Below are positions 6,870 to 43,379 of a DNA stretch of 45,747 nucleotides, one piece after another (position 1 is the stretch's first letter; each line of letters opens with the position of its first letter). Below the pieces are notes generated by a model. The model saw only the letters and a program-made list of their open reading frames with translations. It was not told the origin of the DNA and made no database searches. Source of the DNA: Bacteroidota bacterium (GTDB lineage Bacteria > Bacteroidota > Bacteroidia > Sphingobacteriales > Sphingobacteriaceae); contig JABDDX010000013.1 of the NCBI GenBank assembly GCA_013287375.1, positions 1 to 45,747 on the forward strand, read 5' to 3'. Both the position numbers and the translations under genes were made by a program.

Positions 6870-6914
6870 ATAAATAAGAAAAGCTTTGCATTTTGCAAGG
6901 CTTTTCTTATTTAT
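6870..6914. terminator. Bidirectional terminator between rpoD and threonine aldolase
   Basis: 20-nt arms (6870-6889 and 6895-6914) pair with a single G-U wobble around a 5-nt loop. The outer stem is A/T-rich (ATAAATAAGAAAAGC), giving a T-run on both strands, as expected between convergent genes. Confidence 0.8.
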
Positions 6915-6919
6915 ATTCT

Positions 6920-6996
6920 GTCATGCAGAACTCGTTTCAGCATCCCGCATGCATGATCGCTTGTCCTGAGGGATGCCGAAACAAGTTCGGCATGAC
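6920..6996. repeat. REP-like palindromic pair, GTCATGC type
   Basis: Imperfect inverted repeat: a 26-nt left arm (6920-6945, starts GTCATGCAGAACTCG) and a right arm (6971-6996, ends AAGTTCGGCATGAC), separated by 25 nt. Each arm contains a small ATGC/GCAT stem of its own. It follows the rpoD/aldolase terminator directly. Its GTCAT...ATGAC ends and internal stems match the other palindromes of this window. Confidence 0.7.
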
Positions 6997-7003
6997 GGTT
7001 TAA

Positions 7004-8023
7004 TTATTTAAGAGTCTTCAACACATCAACTGTATATTCAATTTGCTCGGGGTGTACATCAAGGTGCAATACAAAACGGATACGGTGTTTATCGGTGCTC
7101 ATGGCCCTGATTCCTTTCGCGGCGAGTTTTTCTAGGATGAGTGCAGCAGGTTCAACGGTATCAAATAGTATAAGATTGGTCTCAGCAGGTAAAACACCGC
7201 TTACCCAAGGAAGATTGCTTAGGGTTTCACTAAGTATTTGCGCGTGGGCATGGTCTATTTTTAGACGATCAACATGATTATCGAGCGCGTAGATTCCGGC
7301 TGCGGCTAAAAAACCGGCCTGGCGCATGCCTCCACCAAAAACTTTGCGGATTCGGCGGGCATATTTGATAGTTTCTTTATCAGCCAAAAAAACAGAACCT
7401 ATGGGAGCGCCTAAACCTTTTGATAAGCAGACTGATATTCCATTAAAGTATTTACCGTAATCAACCGCTCGGTCGCCGGTATGAGCAAGCGCGTTGAAAA
7501 TCCTCGCGCCATCTAAATGCAGCTTTAGGCCTTTATTCCGACATAAATCAGCAATTGGCTTAATCTGAGCCAGCGCATAGCAACTGCCTCCGCCTTTATT
7601 TACGGTATTTTCTAAGGCGACCAAGCTGGTATGTGGATGATGGATATTGTCGGCGTTAATTTCGGGTTCAATCATTTCGGCAGTGATGATACCGCGATAG
7701 CCATTCAGCAAACGAGTTGAAACTGCTGAGTTGAATGCTATTCCCCCACCCTCGTAACGATAAATATGAGCTGTTTGATCGGCAATTAATTCATCTAAAG
7801 GTTGTGTAAAGCATTTGATGGCGATTTGGTTGGTCATGGTTCCGGAGGGACAAAAAATCCCGGCCTCCATACCAAACATTGCCGCTGACTTCTCTTCGAG
7901 CTGGTTTACGGTTTCATCTTCGCCAAAAACATCATCACCAACTTTGGCATTCATCATGGCATCCAGCATGCCGGGGGTTGGTTTGGTAACGGTATCGCTG
8001 CGCAAATCGACAGTTAATTGCAT
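7004..8023 (-). CDS. ltaE: Low-specificity L-threonine aldolase
   Basis: PLP enzyme that cleaves threonine/allo-threonine to glycine and acetaldehyde. 339 aa, normal length. The N-terminus VDLRSDTVTKPTPGMLDAM is diagnostic of the family. Other motifs: GDDVFGEDETVNQLE (29-44), FCPSGTMTNQIA (57-68), the PLP aspartate D171 in HLDGARIFNA, and the Schiff-base lysine K202 in CLSKGLGAPIGSV. Convergent with rpoD and divergent from the secreted protein at 8186. The gene symbol is given by family; gly1 is also used. Confidence 0.94.
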   Translation of the reverse strand: MQLTVDLRSDTVTKPTPGMLDAMMNAKVGDDVFGEDETVNQLEEKSAAMFGMEAGIFCPSGTMTNQIAIKCFTQPLDELIADQTAHIYRYEGGGIAFNSAVSTRLLNGYRGIITAEMIEPEINADNIHHPHTSLVALENTVNKGGGSCYALAQIKPIADLCRNKGLKLHLDGARIFNALAHTGDRAVDYGKYFNGISVCLSKGLGAPIGSVFLADKETIKYARRIRKVFGGGMRQAGFLAAAGIYALDNHVDRLKIDHAHAQILSETLSNLPWVSGVLPAETNLILFDTVEPAALILEKLAAKGIRAMSTDKHRIRFVLHLDVHPEQIEYTVDVLKTLK

Positions 8024-8878: not shown

Positions 8879-8914
8879 TTTTTAGATATAAGATACTTTT
8901 TAGAATCAAGATAC

Positions 8915-8966
8915 AAGAGTCAAGAATCAAGACGGGAACCCGACTTAGTTCTTGGCTCTTTCTTTT
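8915..8966 (+). terminator. Terminator after the Gly-rich secreted protein
   Basis: 12-nt arms AAGAGTCAAGAA (8915-8926) and TTCTTGGCTCTT (8949-8960) pair with one G-U wobble, followed by TCTTTTTTAT on the plus strand. The large 22-nt loop lowers certainty. Confidence 0.55.
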
Positions 8967-8992
8967 TTATCTTATTTAAAATGCTTAAAATC

Positions 8993-9026
8993 ATCGTCAT
9001 TGCCACGCTGCGCTCGCAATGACGAT
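8993..9026. repeat. Short palindromic repeat, GTCATTGC type
   Basis: Perfect 11-bp inverted repeat ATCGTCATTGC (8993-9003) / GCAATGACGAT (9016-9026) around CACGCTGCGCTC. A close copy lies at 18648-18673 and a fragment at 21124-21136. It shares the GTCAT/ATGAC ends of the other REP-like elements. It could also help terminate the flavoprotein gene that ends at 9050. Confidence 0.65.
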
Positions 9027-9049
9027 AGTTTTTTATATAATTCTTGAAT

Positions 9050-10264
9050 CTACAGTCCCTGAGCTATAACAAATCCGCAGGCCCAAGCCCATTGGAAATT
9101 GTAGCCACCGAGCCAGCCGGTTACATCTACACATTCGCCGCCGTAGTATAGGCCGGGTACTTTTTTAACTTCGAGGGTTTTGGAGGAGAGTTCATCGGTT
9201 GATACGCCGCCGCGCATTACTTCGGCTTTATCGTAGCCCTTATCCCCTGCAGGTTTTACTTTAAATTCGTGTATTAATGCGCTGATGTTCTCGATATCAG
9301 TTTTGGTTAATGATGCCAGGTTCTTTTCAACCGGGAGCTTATCACTTAAGGCTTCAGCAAATTTGCGGGTGTAGAGGCTGGCCAAATACGCCAATAGCAT
9401 CTTTTTACCGTTTGCTTCTTTTTCCTGTTGAATGAGATCGGCAATATTTTCGTTAGGCAGTAAATCGATATAAATAGATTCTCCCGGTCGCCAGTAGGAT
9501 GAAATTTGCAGGATAGCCGGGCCGCTTAAGCCCCAATGGGTGAAGAGGATATTTTCCTCGAAGCTGATCCTGTCATTCCAAACACGGCAGAAAATACTGT
9601 TGCCCGAGAGTTGCTCGTACCATGGTTGATCTTTACCAGTGATGGTTAAGGGCACTAAAGCGGGGGCTGTTTCGGTAAGATTCAGGTCAAATTTGCGGGC
9701 CATGCGAAGTCCAAAATCTGTCGCGCCTATTTTTTGGATAGGTAATCCACCAGAGGCGATAACAACTTTTGGTGTTTGCAGTTGATATTCCTTTTCACCA
9801 ATTTCATAAGTAACGATGAACTCATCGCCTGATTTGTCGATATTTTTTACGGTGACATCGCACTTAATTTCCTGACCGAGATCGCGGCATAAGCCGGTAA
9901 AAACCTCTACAACATCCTTCGCTTTGTTGGTTGTTGGAAACAGCTGACCTAAAGTTTTCTCCTGACCTTCAATACCATAAGTTTCGAAAAAGCTGATGGT
10001 ATCATCAACCGTCCATTGCGCGAAGGCGGATTTGCAGAAATGCTCGTTTGCAGAGATAAATTGCTGTGCCGAGGAATACAGGTTGGTATAATTACAACGC
10101 CCGCCGCCGCTGATGAGGATCTTGGCTCCTACCTTATCGTTCTTTTCGAGAATCAACGTTCGCTTGCCTAAAAAGCCGGCTTGAACTGCGGTCATTAAGC
10201 CGCATGCGCCACCGCCAATAATTATAGCGTCGAAATCTGTTTGTTTTATTAAATTTGTTGCCAT
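9050..10264 (-). CDS. BaiN/HI0933-family FAD-dependent oxidoreductase
   Basis: Flavoprotein of the HI0933/BaiN (aminoacetone oxidase-like) family, about 404 aa from MATNLIKQ. The Rossmann motif is FDAIIIGGGACGLMTAV near the N-terminus, followed by the family-specific KILISGGGRCNYTN, a mid-protein ASGGLP, and the C-terminal FAD motif GYNFQWAWACGF. The physiological substrate is not known for most members. I chose ATG at 10264 because it places the FAD strand at residue 10. The frame remains open upstream to 10381, but that stretch is antisense to nuoA. The start codon overlaps that of the divergent nuoA by two bases within CCATGG. Confidence 0.9.
   Translation of the reverse strand: MATNLIKQTDFDAIIIGGGACGLMTAVQAGFLGKRTLILEKNDKVGAKILISGGGRCNYTNLYSSAQQFISANEHFCKSAFAQWTVDDTISFFETYGIEGQEKTLGQLFPTTNKAKDVVEVFTGLCRDLGQEIKCDVTVKNIDKSGDEFIVTYEIGEKEYQLQTPKVVIASGGLPIQKIGATDFGLRMARKFDLNLTETAPALVPLTITGKDQPWYEQLSGNSIFCRVWNDRISFEENILFTHWGLSGPAILQISSYWRPGESIYIDLLPNENIADLIQQEKEANGKKMLLAYLASLYTRKFAEALSDKLPVEKNLASLTKTDIENISALIHEFKVKPAGDKGYDKAEVMRGGVSTDELSSKTLEVKKVPGLYYGGECVDVTGWLGGYNFQWAWACGFVIAQGL
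10250..10257 (+). promoter_or_regulatory. Candidate -7 box of nuoA inside the flavoprotein gene
   Basis: TAAATTTG matches TAnnTTTG and lies only 5 nt before the nuoA ATG, within codons 3-5 of the divergent flavoprotein gene. If used, the nuoA transcript would be leaderless or nearly so. No good TTTG at -33 spacing. Confidence 0.45.
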
Positions 10265-16901: not shown

Positions 16902-18158
16902 ATGAACAGATACCTTACCTTACTATTGCTGTTTATTTCGATAAGGGGCGTAGCCCAAACAGCGCCTTACGATAACAATGTTTATAATCCGGCTATAAAA
17001 ACCGTTGAGTTTTATAATACCAAAAAGGAACCCTCCTTCCCTATCGTCAACTTAAATAGTGCTGAGCAGGTACAACTGGCTTTTGATGACCTGCGTGGCG
17101 GTGTGCGCAATTACTATTATTCGATTGAGCATTGTGATGGGGATTGGAACTCGTCCAATTTATCACCTACCCAATATTTGCAGAATTTTACCGAGGATAA
17201 GATCATAGATTACACTTATTCATCGGCTACCTTTCAAAAGTATACGCATTATACTATTAAGTTCCCGAATGAGTATATCAAACCTAAAATATCGGGCAAT
17301 TATATTTTAAGGGTTTATGAAGATGATGATCCAACCAAACTTATTTTGACCCGCAGGTTTTATGTTTTGAACAGCAAGGTTACAGTAACTGGCGAGGTTG
17401 TGGCATCGAGTGATTTGGATAACAGAGCACATAATCAGAAAATCAACTTTCAGATTGATTATGGAACACTTAAAGTACAGAACCCGAATAACGACATACG
17501 TACCTGGGTAATGCAAAATCAGCGTAACGAGACAGGTAGCTTTACTACACAACCGCAATACATTCGTGGCTCGCAATTAATTTATGGTGATTTAAGCACA
17601 AATGAGTTTCCTGGCGGGAATGAGTTCAGGCATTTTGATACAAGAAGTTTGAGGCTGAATTCCGATAGGGTTTCGCGAATTTACAGGGATACCGCGAATT
17701 CGGTTGTATTGTTAACTGATGTGAGTCGCAATTTACCTAACTATACTTTTTTATATGATAACGATGGGCAATTTTACCCGCTAAATCAGGACGGGACAGA
17801 CCCAACTATTGATGCTGATTACGCGCATATGTTTTTTAGTCTGACCGCGGGAAAGACAGCGGCCGATGGCTCGGCTTATATAGTGGGCAAGTTTAACGAC
17901 TACAAACTGGATGAACACAGCAAGCTTGATTATGATGATAAAGGCAAATTCTACACCCACCTGTTCTTAAAACAGGGTGTTTATGACTACCAGTATGTTT
18001 GGATTGATAACGCCACTAAAAAGCCTGATTACACCCTTTTAGAAGGCAATTATTTTGATACAGAGAATAAGTACCAGGTATTGGTTTACTATCATCCGCC
18101 TGCGGCGCAATGGGAAGAATTGGTAGGGTATGTGGTTTTGAGTTCGGTGCAGAAATGA
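16902..18158 (+). CDS. Type IX secretion system Plug protein (DUF5103)
   Basis: 418 aa with a signal peptide (LTLLLLFISIRGVAQ). Family features: an N-terminal YDNNVYNPAIKTVEFYNTKK strand, FDDLRGGVRNYYYSIEHCDG and WNSSNLSPTQYL (all in about the first 100 residues), and a C-terminal YDYQYVWID and EGNYFDTENKYQVLVYYHPP. In Flavobacterium johnsoniae the DUF5103 protein closes the SprA translocon pore on its periplasmic side. Its presence implies a T9SS elsewhere in this genome; no other T9SS gene is in the window. The start is close behind the ABC-F terminator. Confidence 0.85.
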   Translation: MNRYLTLLLLFISIRGVAQTAPYDNNVYNPAIKTVEFYNTKKEPSFPIVNLNSAEQVQLAFDDLRGGVRNYYYSIEHCDGDWNSSNLSPTQYLQNFTEDKIIDYTYSSATFQKYTHYTIKFPNEYIKPKISGNYILRVYEDDDPTKLILTRRFYVLNSKVTVTGEVVASSDLDNRAHNQKINFQIDYGTLKVQNPNNDIRTWVMQNQRNETGSFTTQPQYIRGSQLIYGDLSTNEFPGGNEFRHFDTRSLRLNSDRVSRIYRDTANSVVLLTDVSRNLPNYTFLYDNDGQFYPLNQDGTDPTIDADYAHMFFSLTAGKTAADGSAYIVGKFNDYKLDEHSKLDYDDKGKFYTHLFLKQGVYDYQYVWIDNATKKPDYTLLEGNYFDTENKYQVLVYYHPPAAQWEELVGYVVLSSVQK

Positions 18159-18228
18159 GAACCAGGATTAAAAGAGCATTAACTGTCATACTGAGCGTAG
18201 TCAAAGTATGTGCGTCGGGCTAACGGAT

Positions 18229-18236
18229 TATTTTTG
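18229..18236 (+). promoter_or_regulatory. Candidate -7 box of the GIY-YIG gene
   Basis: TATTTTTG fits TAnnTTTG, lies 16 nt before the ATG and inside the inverted-repeat unit, so the gene could be expressed wherever the unit sits. Confidence 0.45.
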
Positions 18237-18252
18237 ACAACAAGAGCTTTAT

Positions 18253-18546
18253 ATGAACCAATACTTTGTATACATACTTCTATGCAGTGATAATTCCTAT
18301 TACACAGGTGTAACTAATGATTTGGAACGAAGATTATTTGAGCATCAAAACGGAATGAATCCGAATTCCTATACACATACCAGAAGACCACTCAAATTAG
18401 TTTTTCATGAGATGTTTCCAGATGTTAACCAAGAGATAGCTTTTGAAAAACAAGTTAAGGGTTGGACTAGGGTGAAGAAAGAGGCGATTATTAATGGAGA
18501 TTGGAAATCGTTGCCGAGAATAGCTAAGGAGAAGAAACAGCATTAA
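18253..18546 (+). CDS. Single-domain GIY-YIG endonuclease
   Basis: 97 aa, essentially only the nuclease domain. The FVYILLCSDNSYYTG block supplies the two motif strands, with Y7 and Y17-T-G. The catalytic-helix Arg is R27 in LERRLFEH, and the metal-binding Glu is E65 in EIAFEKQVKGW. This is the YhbQ/UPF0213-type branch, commonly annotated as 'GIY-YIG nuclease family protein' and, from memory, often multi-copy in Bacteroidota. There is no DNA-binding appendage like that of phage homing enzymes. It sits between 30-nt inverted repeats. Target DNA unknown. Confidence 0.92.
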   Translation: MNQYFVYILLCSDNSYYTGVTNDLERRLFEHQNGMNPNSYTHTRRPLKLVFHEMFPDVNQEIAFEKQVKGWTRVKKEAIINGDWKSLPRIAKEKKQH

Positions 18547-18604
18547 GGGCCTTTGCCCACATACTTCGACTACGCTCAGTATGACAGCCCTTGCACATTT
18601 TCTA

Positions 18605-18649
18605 TATAAAACAAAATCCCCGATTCACTTGAATTGCAAATCGGGGATT
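18605..18649 (-). terminator. Terminator of the DPP IV gene
   Basis: AATCCCCGATT (18615-18625) pairs with AATCGGGGATT (18639-18649). Read on the minus strand the hairpin is followed by TTGTTTTATA, right for the gene ending at 18694. Confidence 0.7.
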
Positions 18650-18673
18650 GCCACGCTATCGCTCGCAATGACG
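18648..18673. repeat. Palindromic repeat, GTCATTGC type (second copy)
   Basis: ATTGCCACGCTATCGCTCGC followed by AATGAC matches the 8993-9026 element except for a one-base insertion and a diverged first arm end. It overlaps the terminator of the DPP IV gene. Confidence 0.55.
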
Positions 18674-18693: not shown

Positions 18694-20949
18694 TTACTGC
18701 TTATCATTCAAATTAGGCAGATCGCAAACGCCTTTTAAATAACGTTGTAAGTAGTTAAAGTTTACTTCTGATATCAAAATGTAACTCTGCATGTTGTATG
18801 CCGCGCCGTGTGCTCCCGGTGGATAGATGCGTAGGTCAACGTCTTTGCCGGCATTGGTTAAGGCAGTTAATAACTGCATAGTATTAGCCGGGTGTACGTT
18901 ATCATCGCTCATGGAGTGGATCAGCAGGAAGTGATCTTTTAATCCTGGAGCATGCGTTATGTCTGAACTATTTTTGTAGCCTTCCTGGTTATCATCTGAA
19001 GTGCCCATGTAACGCTCGGTATAGATATCATCATATAAGCGCCAGTCGGTTACCGGTGAATTGGCCATACCTACGGTAAAGATACCTGGGTGGGTTAATA
19101 AAGTGTAGGTGGTAATGTAACCACCGTAACTACCACCCATAATAGCTCTTTTTGTGCTATCAATAAATGGCATGGTACCCATATAATGCGCGGTTTCGGC
19201 GAAATCTTCGCTTTCAAATTTGCCTAGTTGTTTGTAAACGCCTTTCAGGAAAGCACTGCCATAGTTGGCGCTGCCCCTGTTGTTCACGTTTACTACCACA
19301 TAGCCATTTTGAGCCAGCCATTGTGCCCATGCGCCATCATTAAACTTGTTGAATACTTCGTGCGATTCCGGGCCGCCGTAAACATCCATTACCATTGGGT
19401 ATTTTTTATTTGGATCGAAGTTGAATGGTTTGATCATGTAGCCATCCAATTCAACACCGTCGCGGGTTTTGAAGTGGAAGTTTTCCTGCGGCGAATAAGC
19501 ATGAGTTGTTATGTAGTCGCTTACCGCTTTATTGTCTTCCAGTGTTTTAAGCACTTTGCCTTTGTCGTCGCACAAATCAACATGGGTTGGTACGTTTACA
19601 CTGCTGTATTTATCAATGTAGAATTTAGTATTTGGCGACATGTTGATGTCGTGATAACCCGGCTGCATGGATAACCTTGTTTTCTTGCTGCCGTCGTATT
19701 TTATAGAGTAGAATTGCTGCTCTATCGGAGAAGTTTCTGCAGACAGGTAATAGATGGTTTTTGAATCTGGATTGATGCCGATAACTTTTAGCATATCCCA
19801 GTCACCTTTTGTTACCTGGTTTAGCAATTTACCCTCATAGCTGTAGCGGTAAATATGATAGTAACCTGAACGGTCTGATACCCAGAAGAAGTCTTTTGAC
19901 TTTTCAGGGAAGTACAGCATATCATTGATATTGGTGTAGAAATTTGAGATAGCTACCCAGGTAGTGTTTTTTTCTTCTAAAACCACATGATGCTCACCAG
20001 TTTTTACATTGAAGAAGTACAGCTTCATATCGTTTTGCGCACGGTTTAGGGTAACCATGGCTAAAACGTCAGGATCGCTTGTCCAGTAGATACGTGGGAT
20101 GTAGAAATCACCTGTCTCATCAGGACTCAACCATACTTTTTTACCAGAGTTTACATCAATCACACCAATTTTTACTGATGGATTTGGATCGCCAACCAGT
20201 GGTATAGAGATGTGGATGTTATTCGGATGCTGACCTTCGTAGTTGGTCATCTGAAAATCGGGTACTTTGCTTTCATCAAATTGCCAGAAAGCCATGTATC
20301 TGTTATCAGGCGACCAGTTCCAGGCTTGTGATACTTCTAGTTCTTCTTCGTAAACCCAATCGCCATGGCCGTTGAAGATGCCATTTTCGCTGGTCGAATC
20401 ACTGGTCAGTTGCTTTTCCTGGCCGGTAGCAAAGTTGTATACGTACATATTGCCCCCACGCTCTATACCTACCATCGAACCATCCGGAGATAACTCGGCA
20501 GAGCGGGCATCTTTAGCGGCAACTTTTAATTGTTTGTTTTGAATATCGTAGATGTAATAATCTGACACCCCCGAGCGACGATAGATCTTACGGAAATTAG
20601 TTTGGAAAACCAGGTGTTTAAAATCATGCGTCCAGTCGAATTTTTCGTATTCGAAAGCTTTGTCGGTGCCGGGATATTTCAGATCGGCGTTGTTGAAGAT
20701 CACGCTTTCCTTTAAGGTAGCGGGATTCATTGAGCTGATGCCGTCTTTGCTAGCGAAGGAATATTGATCGCCGCCATTGATCCAGTCGACATTTTGAGGG
20801 CCTGATTTACCGCGAAGCATTCTGCCCGCCATTAAAGCATCGGTTAAACTGGTGTATTGGGTTTTAGTTTGCGCGATGGTATTTTGGGGTAATACACAGC
20901 CAAACAAACAAAGGCACGCCAACATGCCTTGTAAGGATTTATTTTTCAT
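18694..20949 (-). CDS. Dipeptidyl peptidase IV, S9 family
   Basis: Secreted serine exopeptidase releasing X-Pro (or X-Ala) dipeptides; 751 aa. Signal peptide at 1-27 ends QNTIAQ. An N-terminal eight-bladed propeller follows, with the substrate-anchoring double Glu at 201-202 in GDWVYEEELEVS, characteristic of DPP IV. The C-terminal alpha/beta hydrolase carries S607 (GGSYGGY), D682 (HSMSDDNVH) and H714 (PGAHG); the spacings of 75 and 32 residues resemble human DPP IV. Likely periplasmic peptide utilisation. Monocistronic, with a terminator downstream. Confidence 0.93.
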   Translation of the reverse strand: MKNKSLQGMLACLCLFGCVLPQNTIAQTKTQYTSLTDALMAGRMLRGKSGPQNVDWINGGDQYSFASKDGISSMNPATLKESVIFNNADLKYPGTDKAFEYEKFDWTHDFKHLVFQTNFRKIYRRSGVSDYYIYDIQNKQLKVAAKDARSAELSPDGSMVGIERGGNMYVYNFATGQEKQLTSDSTSENGIFNGHGDWVYEEELEVSQAWNWSPDNRYMAFWQFDESKVPDFQMTNYEGQHPNNIHISIPLVGDPNPSVKIGVIDVNSGKKVWLSPDETGDFYIPRIYWTSDPDVLAMVTLNRAQNDMKLYFFNVKTGEHHVVLEEKNTTWVAISNFYTNINDMLYFPEKSKDFFWVSDRSGYYHIYRYSYEGKLLNQVTKGDWDMLKVIGINPDSKTIYYLSAETSPIEQQFYSIKYDGSKKTRLSMQPGYHDINMSPNTKFYIDKYSSVNVPTHVDLCDDKGKVLKTLEDNKAVSDYITTHAYSPQENFHFKTRDGVELDGYMIKPFNFDPNKKYPMVMDVYGGPESHEVFNKFNDGAWAQWLAQNGYVVVNVNNRGSANYGSAFLKGVYKQLGKFESEDFAETAHYMGTMPFIDSTKRAIMGGSYGGYITTYTLLTHPGIFTVGMANSPVTDWRLYDDIYTERYMGTSDDNQEGYKNSSDITHAPGLKDHFLLIHSMSDDNVHPANTMQLLTALTNAGKDVDLRIYPPGAHGAAYNMQSYILISEVNFNYLQRYLKGVCDLPNLNDKQ

Positions 20950-43287: not shown

Positions 43288-43379
43288 CTGTCATTTCGAA
43301 CGTAGAGAGAAATCTTCTAAATCCTGCACGACGAACTTTGCATATTGAAGAAGATTTCTCTCTACGTTCGAAATGTCAG
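43288..43379. repeat. REP-like palindromic pair, GTCATTTCGAACG type
   Basis: 31-nt arms (43288-43318 starting CTGTCATTTCGAACGTAGAG, and 43349-43379) complement each other with one mismatch around a 30-nt spacer. Each arm has an internal ATTTC/GAAAT stem. Same design as the pair around the GIY-YIG gene, with an empty centre. It may also act as the fmt terminator. Confidence 0.75.

Follow-up and report, generated by a model that had tools for sequence, protein, structure and literature searches.

A GIY-YIG nuclease gene packaged between CGTC/TGTC-type palindromes in Mucilaginibacter: a probable nuclease-REP pair

The unit and its neighbourhood

The window, by which the whole analysed stretch of 45,747 nucleotides is meant, is contig C13 of an incomplete Mucilaginibacter genome (G000; 58.5% complete, 188 contigs). 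Between two convergent genes, encoding a T9SS plug domain protein (16902-18158) and an S9 peptidase (18694-20949), lies a small GIY-YIG nuclease gene enclosed by two palindromes (Table 1). The palindromes are inverted, differ at 1 of 30 positions and delimit, from arm to arm, a unit of 405 bp. An earlier note on this DNA had described 30-nt inverted repeats with one mismatch around a 97-aa nuclease gene, and both the coordinates and the identity of the arms agree with that description. The pattern of the palindrome occurs exactly twice in the window and never in shuffled sequence.

Table 1. Positions of the nuclease unit and of other palindromes in the window
Feature	Position	Strand	Remarks
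Gene-less palindrome pair, another family	6920..6996		G079 has a different pair at the same site
Lone GTCATTGCGAG-type palindrome	8996..9023		Absent in G076; gene-less pair at the same site in G079
Left palindrome	18183..18212	+	CTGTCATACTGAGCGTAGTCAAAGTATGTG; 30 nt; GTC tag outward; hairpin CATACT/AGTATG
TATTTTTG, proposed -7 box	18229..18236	+	Not significant; not kept in G076
GIY-YIG nuclease gene	18253..18546	+	97 aa, UPF0213 type
Right palindrome	18558..18587	-	Reverse complement CTGTCATACTGAGCGTAGTCGAAGTATGTG; GTC tag outward; 29/30 identical to the left arm
Lone palindrome, family of the L003 nuclease	18647..18672	-	Adjacent to the unit but outside it
Lone GTCATTTCGA-type palindrome, family of the L004 nuclease	43290..43313	+	Kept in G076 and G079

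The product of the open reading frame matches the Pfam GIY-YIG family (E 1e-16) and the UPF0213 structures 1zg2 and 1ywl; a group I intron endonuclease model is matched only weakly. The protein fits the UPF0213 type of GIY-YIG nuclease, a stand-alone domain of about 90-100 aa with two Tyr, a Gly, an Arg and a Glu in the active site, and the corresponding residues Y7, Y17, G19, R27 and E65 are kept in 98-100% of the homologues (n=118). A role in defence was dropped, as the nuclease has no match to the PADLOC defence protein models. The proposal that the gene has its own -7 box was likewise abandoned: the motif TAnnTTTG is at chance level in the window (66 seen vs 59.8 expected), and the position of the box reads TATTTTAA in G076.

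Two further points of the earlier note stand in part. Each arm had been called a hairpin, and a 6-bp stem of CATACT/AGTATG can indeed form in a single arm, but the folding is barely better than that of shuffles (z -1.2 to -1.6). The gene-less pairs, folded as DNA, are strong against shuffles (z -8 and -5). Equivalent gene-less pairs had also been reported elsewhere in the window; one is present and equivalent in layout, but its sequence is that of another family. In the gaps at 6900-7030 and 8880-9065 of the window, the orthologous sites of G000, G076 and G079 are occupied by different palindrome pairs or by none, which points to fast turnover of palindromes at fixed sites.

Association with GIY-YIG genes and cognate pairing

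The association between such nucleases and palindromes is specific. GTCA-tagged hairpins within 300 nt were scored as present on both sides with their tags outward, the controls being taken from the same loci. This arrangement was found at 50 of the 86 GIY-YIG genes of the genus (58%) and at a single one of 244 control ORFs (0.4%), and although the p value of 2e-34 overstates independence, because the GIY-YIG genes share ancestry, the difference is very large. One tagged hairpin on any side is common among both groups (89.5% of GIY-YIG genes vs 24.6% of controls), and therefore only the two-sided arrangement is distinctive; for about one third of the GIY-YIG genes of the genus, one side or both are without a tagged hairpin. 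A second test, with controls again from the same loci, asked for inverted arms with a score of 18 or higher no farther than 350 nt away and gave a similar picture (49/114 GIY-YIG genes vs 2/292 controls). These counts answer the check suggested in the earlier note, namely whether palindromes flank GIY-YIG genes more often than other genes, and both sets of controls contradict the possibility, raised there, that random genes are flanked equally often. Homologues at a conserved locus without repeats, also envisaged there, were not seen, and those of G076 and G025 at the locus keep their repeats.

Palindrome flanking of GIY-YIG genes recurs in other phyla. A GTCA-tagged hairpin lies within 300 nt of nine of 12 homologues, and four are flanked on both sides, compared with 7/45 and 0/45 of the controls. 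A deltaproteobacterial locus (L177) has perfect 44-nt arms, and at two loci (L187 and L209) such nucleases occur alongside GTCATTCCCGCG..GCGGGAAT. In a Dojkabacteria MAG (L167) the flanking palindromes carry a GTAG tag with a similar TGAG..TCGAA loop (GTAGTGGTGAG..CTCGAACCACTAC), and judging from this locus the type of tag may switch within the family.

The window genome encodes four GIY-YIG genes of this size, each with a different flanking palindrome (GTCATACTGAGCG.., GTCATGCTGAGGC.., GTCATTGCGAGCG.. and GTCATTTCGACCG..), and a fifth match is located inside a 466-aa frame. When the genes are arranged in the order of the nuclease tree, the palindrome type changes along with the clade. Distances between proteins and between palindromes are correlated (Mantel r 0.55, 0/2000 permutations), and the same holds when only different genomes are compared. 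For all 47 of 47 genes, the palindromes resemble those of homologues in other genomes more closely than those of paralogues in the same genome (47:0), a result that persists when only non-syntenic homologues are considered. The palindrome type thus follows the nuclease clade, not the genome. The window palindrome itself is restricted to four of 101 genomes (G000, G076, G025 and G079). The first three encode a nuclease with at least 80% identity, and the sister genome G079 has five copies of the palindrome and no such nuclease. Taken with the control genes and the clade-matched palindromes, this restricted distribution lends strong support to the partnership that the earlier note had inferred, and enzyme and repeat are very probably partners.

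Copy numbers, taken from genome searches and sequence stretches, vary widely: the window palindrome has four exact copies in its own incomplete genome, and one palindrome family ranges from 0 to 164 copies per genome across the genus. Genomes with the cognate clade have more palindrome copies (p 0.02 for clade I, 0.002 for clade II and 7e-5 for the closest subtype of clade II), where the p values ignore relatedness and clade membership was set by score cut-offs. A simple dependence of repeat number on the presence of the nuclease was rejected, the link being only modest. In G006 and G036, which have no intact cognate nuclease, 39 and 30 clade I palindromes are present, and G006 has 23 of clade II as well; palindromes evidently outlive the nuclease. 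In G030, a truncated GIY-YIG gene (969969-970202) has beside it five copies of the clade II palindrome in direct orientation, with a period of 147 bp (C1:970238-970855).

The hairpin itself is under constraint. All three variable stem positions are complementary at 201 of 231 distinct sites, in 14 combinations, where chance would give 1.6%; in a second family, 83 of 96 sites are fully paired, in three combinations. The search pattern fixes the tag and the loop and leaves the stem free, so that these numbers show compensation in the stem and not conservation of the loop; pattern 'I', which is out of register, was left out. The hairpin matters, whether as DNA or as RNA.

Presence, absence and movement of the units

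G000 and G076 both carry the unit at the window locus, and in G025 it adjoins the same plug gene. G079, which by DNA identity is closer to G000 than G076 is, has 78 bp at this locus compared with 521 bp in the window, and the edges are not clean. On the simplest reading of these alignments, G079 has apparently lost the unit, and the residence of the unit at one locus in three species suggests that it is old there and, for that reason, not very mobile. Gene-less pairs of the window palindrome lie scattered through G079 and G000; they consist of GTCATACTGAGCGTAGTCGAAGTATG, about 19 nt and a second palindrome in the opposite orientation.

Presence and absence vary at other loci as well. In G081 one unit (L021) has the form REPIN-gene-REPIN, and the same site holds one REPIN in G021 and none in G041, G051, G070 and G016. 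Two paralogues of G027 (L084 and L089, 88.8% identical) lie at unrelated sites, and in this example the homology is confined by the palindromes, as the common DNA starts 1 bp before the left palindrome and stops 11 bp after the right one. Among non-syntenic pairs of close nucleases (n=79), the palindromes are 84% identical, compared with 68% in distant pairs, and the outside flanks are 51-53% identical, which is about the level of distant pairs. In these comparisons, gene and palindromes travel together and leave their surroundings behind.

Mobility had been proposed in the earlier note, and variable presence and homology bounded by palindromes speak for it indirectly, but the compared loci yielded neither a target-site duplication nor a clean-edged empty site, and the window locus itself points to old residence with one loss. 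A candidate empty site for L066 in G021 was rejected, as the left side aligns and the right side does not. Several GIY-YIG regions are tandemly duplicated or rearranged, with many internal repeats (L208 in G253, L210 in G153, and L134/L138), and at L209 (G174) two GIY-YIG genes that share 99% identity over 420 bp are located within arrays of about 20 dRS3-like repeats of the GTCATTCCCGCG..GCGGGAAT kind. The tandem duplicates in G253, G174 and G153 are messy and did not serve as evidence.

Interpretation and comparison with known systems

We consider it probable that the unit is a nuclease-REP pair, in which two copies of the CGTC/TGTC-type hairpin that the nuclease recognises enclose its gene. 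We infer that the enzyme would read the GTCA tag and the hairpin loop in single-stranded DNA, as exposed during replication, repair or DNA uptake, and would cut one strand at the palindrome. Palindromes, REPINs (the gene-less pairs) and REP-gene-REP units would then appear, move and disappear between genes as such cuts are repaired or recombined and as repeat copies recombine with one another. As each clade has its own palindrome, several pairs coexist in one genome and do not mix.

The main rival to spread driven by the nuclease is that the palindromes are cut sites maintained for a host function, such as limiting DNA uptake, as is reported for Ssn of Neisseria, and that movement is due to ordinary homologous recombination or to other enzymes, the nuclease not being the agent of spread. 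This explanation is plausible, if somewhat doubtful in our judgement. It accommodates the fact that G000, G076 and G025 keep the window unit at a single locus and that gene-less palindromes persist without a nuclease; moreover, the two REPINs of L021 are direct repeats, so that the single REPIN in G021 fits recombinational loss, and recombination between repeats accounts for some of the polymorphism without any action of the nuclease. However, close nucleases at non-syntenic sites are flanked by the same palindromes, near which the homology ends, and this means that some agent moved them.

A further explanation is that a RAYT or another transposase encoded elsewhere in the genome mobilises the palindromes, with the nuclease gene as a passenger. 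The layout resembles that of REPIN-RAYT systems, and it has been suggested that various transposases may move CGTC REPs (Di Nocera et al. 2013, PMC3733652), but a passenger would not give one palindrome type per nuclease clade, and a RAYT gene flanked by CGTC units was not found in that survey (PMC3733652); we regard this explanation as improbable. Coincidence in intergenic hotspots, where palindromes and a small gene would both settle in tolerant gaps, is more improbable still. The different palindrome pairs in the orthologous gaps of G000, G076 and G079, and the quarter or so of control ORFs (24.6%) with one tagged hairpin nearby, are what such hotspots could produce, but they do not produce the excess of two-sided outward flanking (58% vs 0.4%) or the match of palindrome to clade in 47 of 47 genes.

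As regards known systems, the nuclease-REP pair shares with REPIN-RAYT systems an enzyme gene flanked by its own palindromes, gene-less dimers spread in the genome and a lineage-specific pairing of enzyme and repeat. It differs in that the enzyme is a GIY-YIG nuclease and not a tyrosine transposase of the IS200/IS605 type, and in that the tag is GTC(A) and not GTAG. The comparison with REP and RAYT in the earlier note is therefore apt for the layout, but membership among the RAYTs was rejected because both the enzyme and the tag (GTCA) are wrong. GIY-YIG homing endonucleases have the catalytic domain and the selfish-looking spread of a nuclease gene in common with the present genes, whereas here there is no intron or intein context and the gene is flanked by its presumed targets. 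Literature searches found no publication linking GIY-YIG nucleases with REPs.

The palindromes are of the type of the CGTC-tagged REPs, which often begin with TGTC, have A-T and then T-A as first stem pairs, and measure 20-40 bp (Di Nocera et al. 2013, PMC3733652). Those REPs mostly form head-to-head dimers, occur in five phyla including Bacteroidetes, were equated in Neisseria with dRS3, and were concluded to be without a dedicated transposase (PMC3733652). Palindromes of the window type share the CGTC/TGTC tag, the A-T/T-A first pairs, the length of 20-40 bp and the dimer layout, and the arms read TGTC-AT..AT. Families 1-4 of the survey have a stem of 8-9 bp and a loop of 4-5 nt (PMC3733652), whereas the window arms have a 6-bp stem and a 12-nt loop; they are therefore called CGTC/TGTC-type and are not assigned to any of the four families. 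A second difference is that here each palindrome type has a nuclease, in contrast to the survey's REPs with no dedicated enzyme. CGTC/TGTC-type REPs are known in several phyla, and the 2013 survey left open what makes or moves them; the cognate pairing described here names an enzyme family to examine. A wider proposal, which we put forward tentatively and rate a little short of an even chance, is that UPF0213-type GIY-YIG nucleases are the missing mobilising enzymes of these REPs across bacteria, with a spread driven by the nuclease and free of transposases, several mutually exclusive pairs in one genome and the autonomous copy packaged as REP-gene-REP. Several natural pairs of nuclease and palindrome within one genus are also a resource for mapping specificity.

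The nearest known system is Ssn-NTS of Neisseria, in which Ssn is reported, in a 2025 study in Nat Commun, to be a site-specific GIY-YIG nuclease that cuts single-stranded DNA at the many-copy repeat NTS. The study also reportedly describes an effect of Ssn on transformation and many homologues. The dRS3-type repeat has the same GTCAT start as the palindromes studied here. Both systems combine a small stand-alone GIY-YIG nuclease with a many-copy cognate palindromic repeat, but here the lineage and the palindromes are different, four pairs are present in one genome and the gene is packaged as a dynamic unit. If Ssn works as reported, a partnership of this kind between nuclease and repeat is already known, and the additions beyond Ssn are the packaged unit, the several pairs per genome, the compensation in the stem, the dynamics at orthologous sites and a connection with CGTC-type REPs. 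The biology of REPs would thereby be linked with that of the Ssn single-strand nucleases, enzymes that hold interest as tools, as each clade seems to read its own hairpin.
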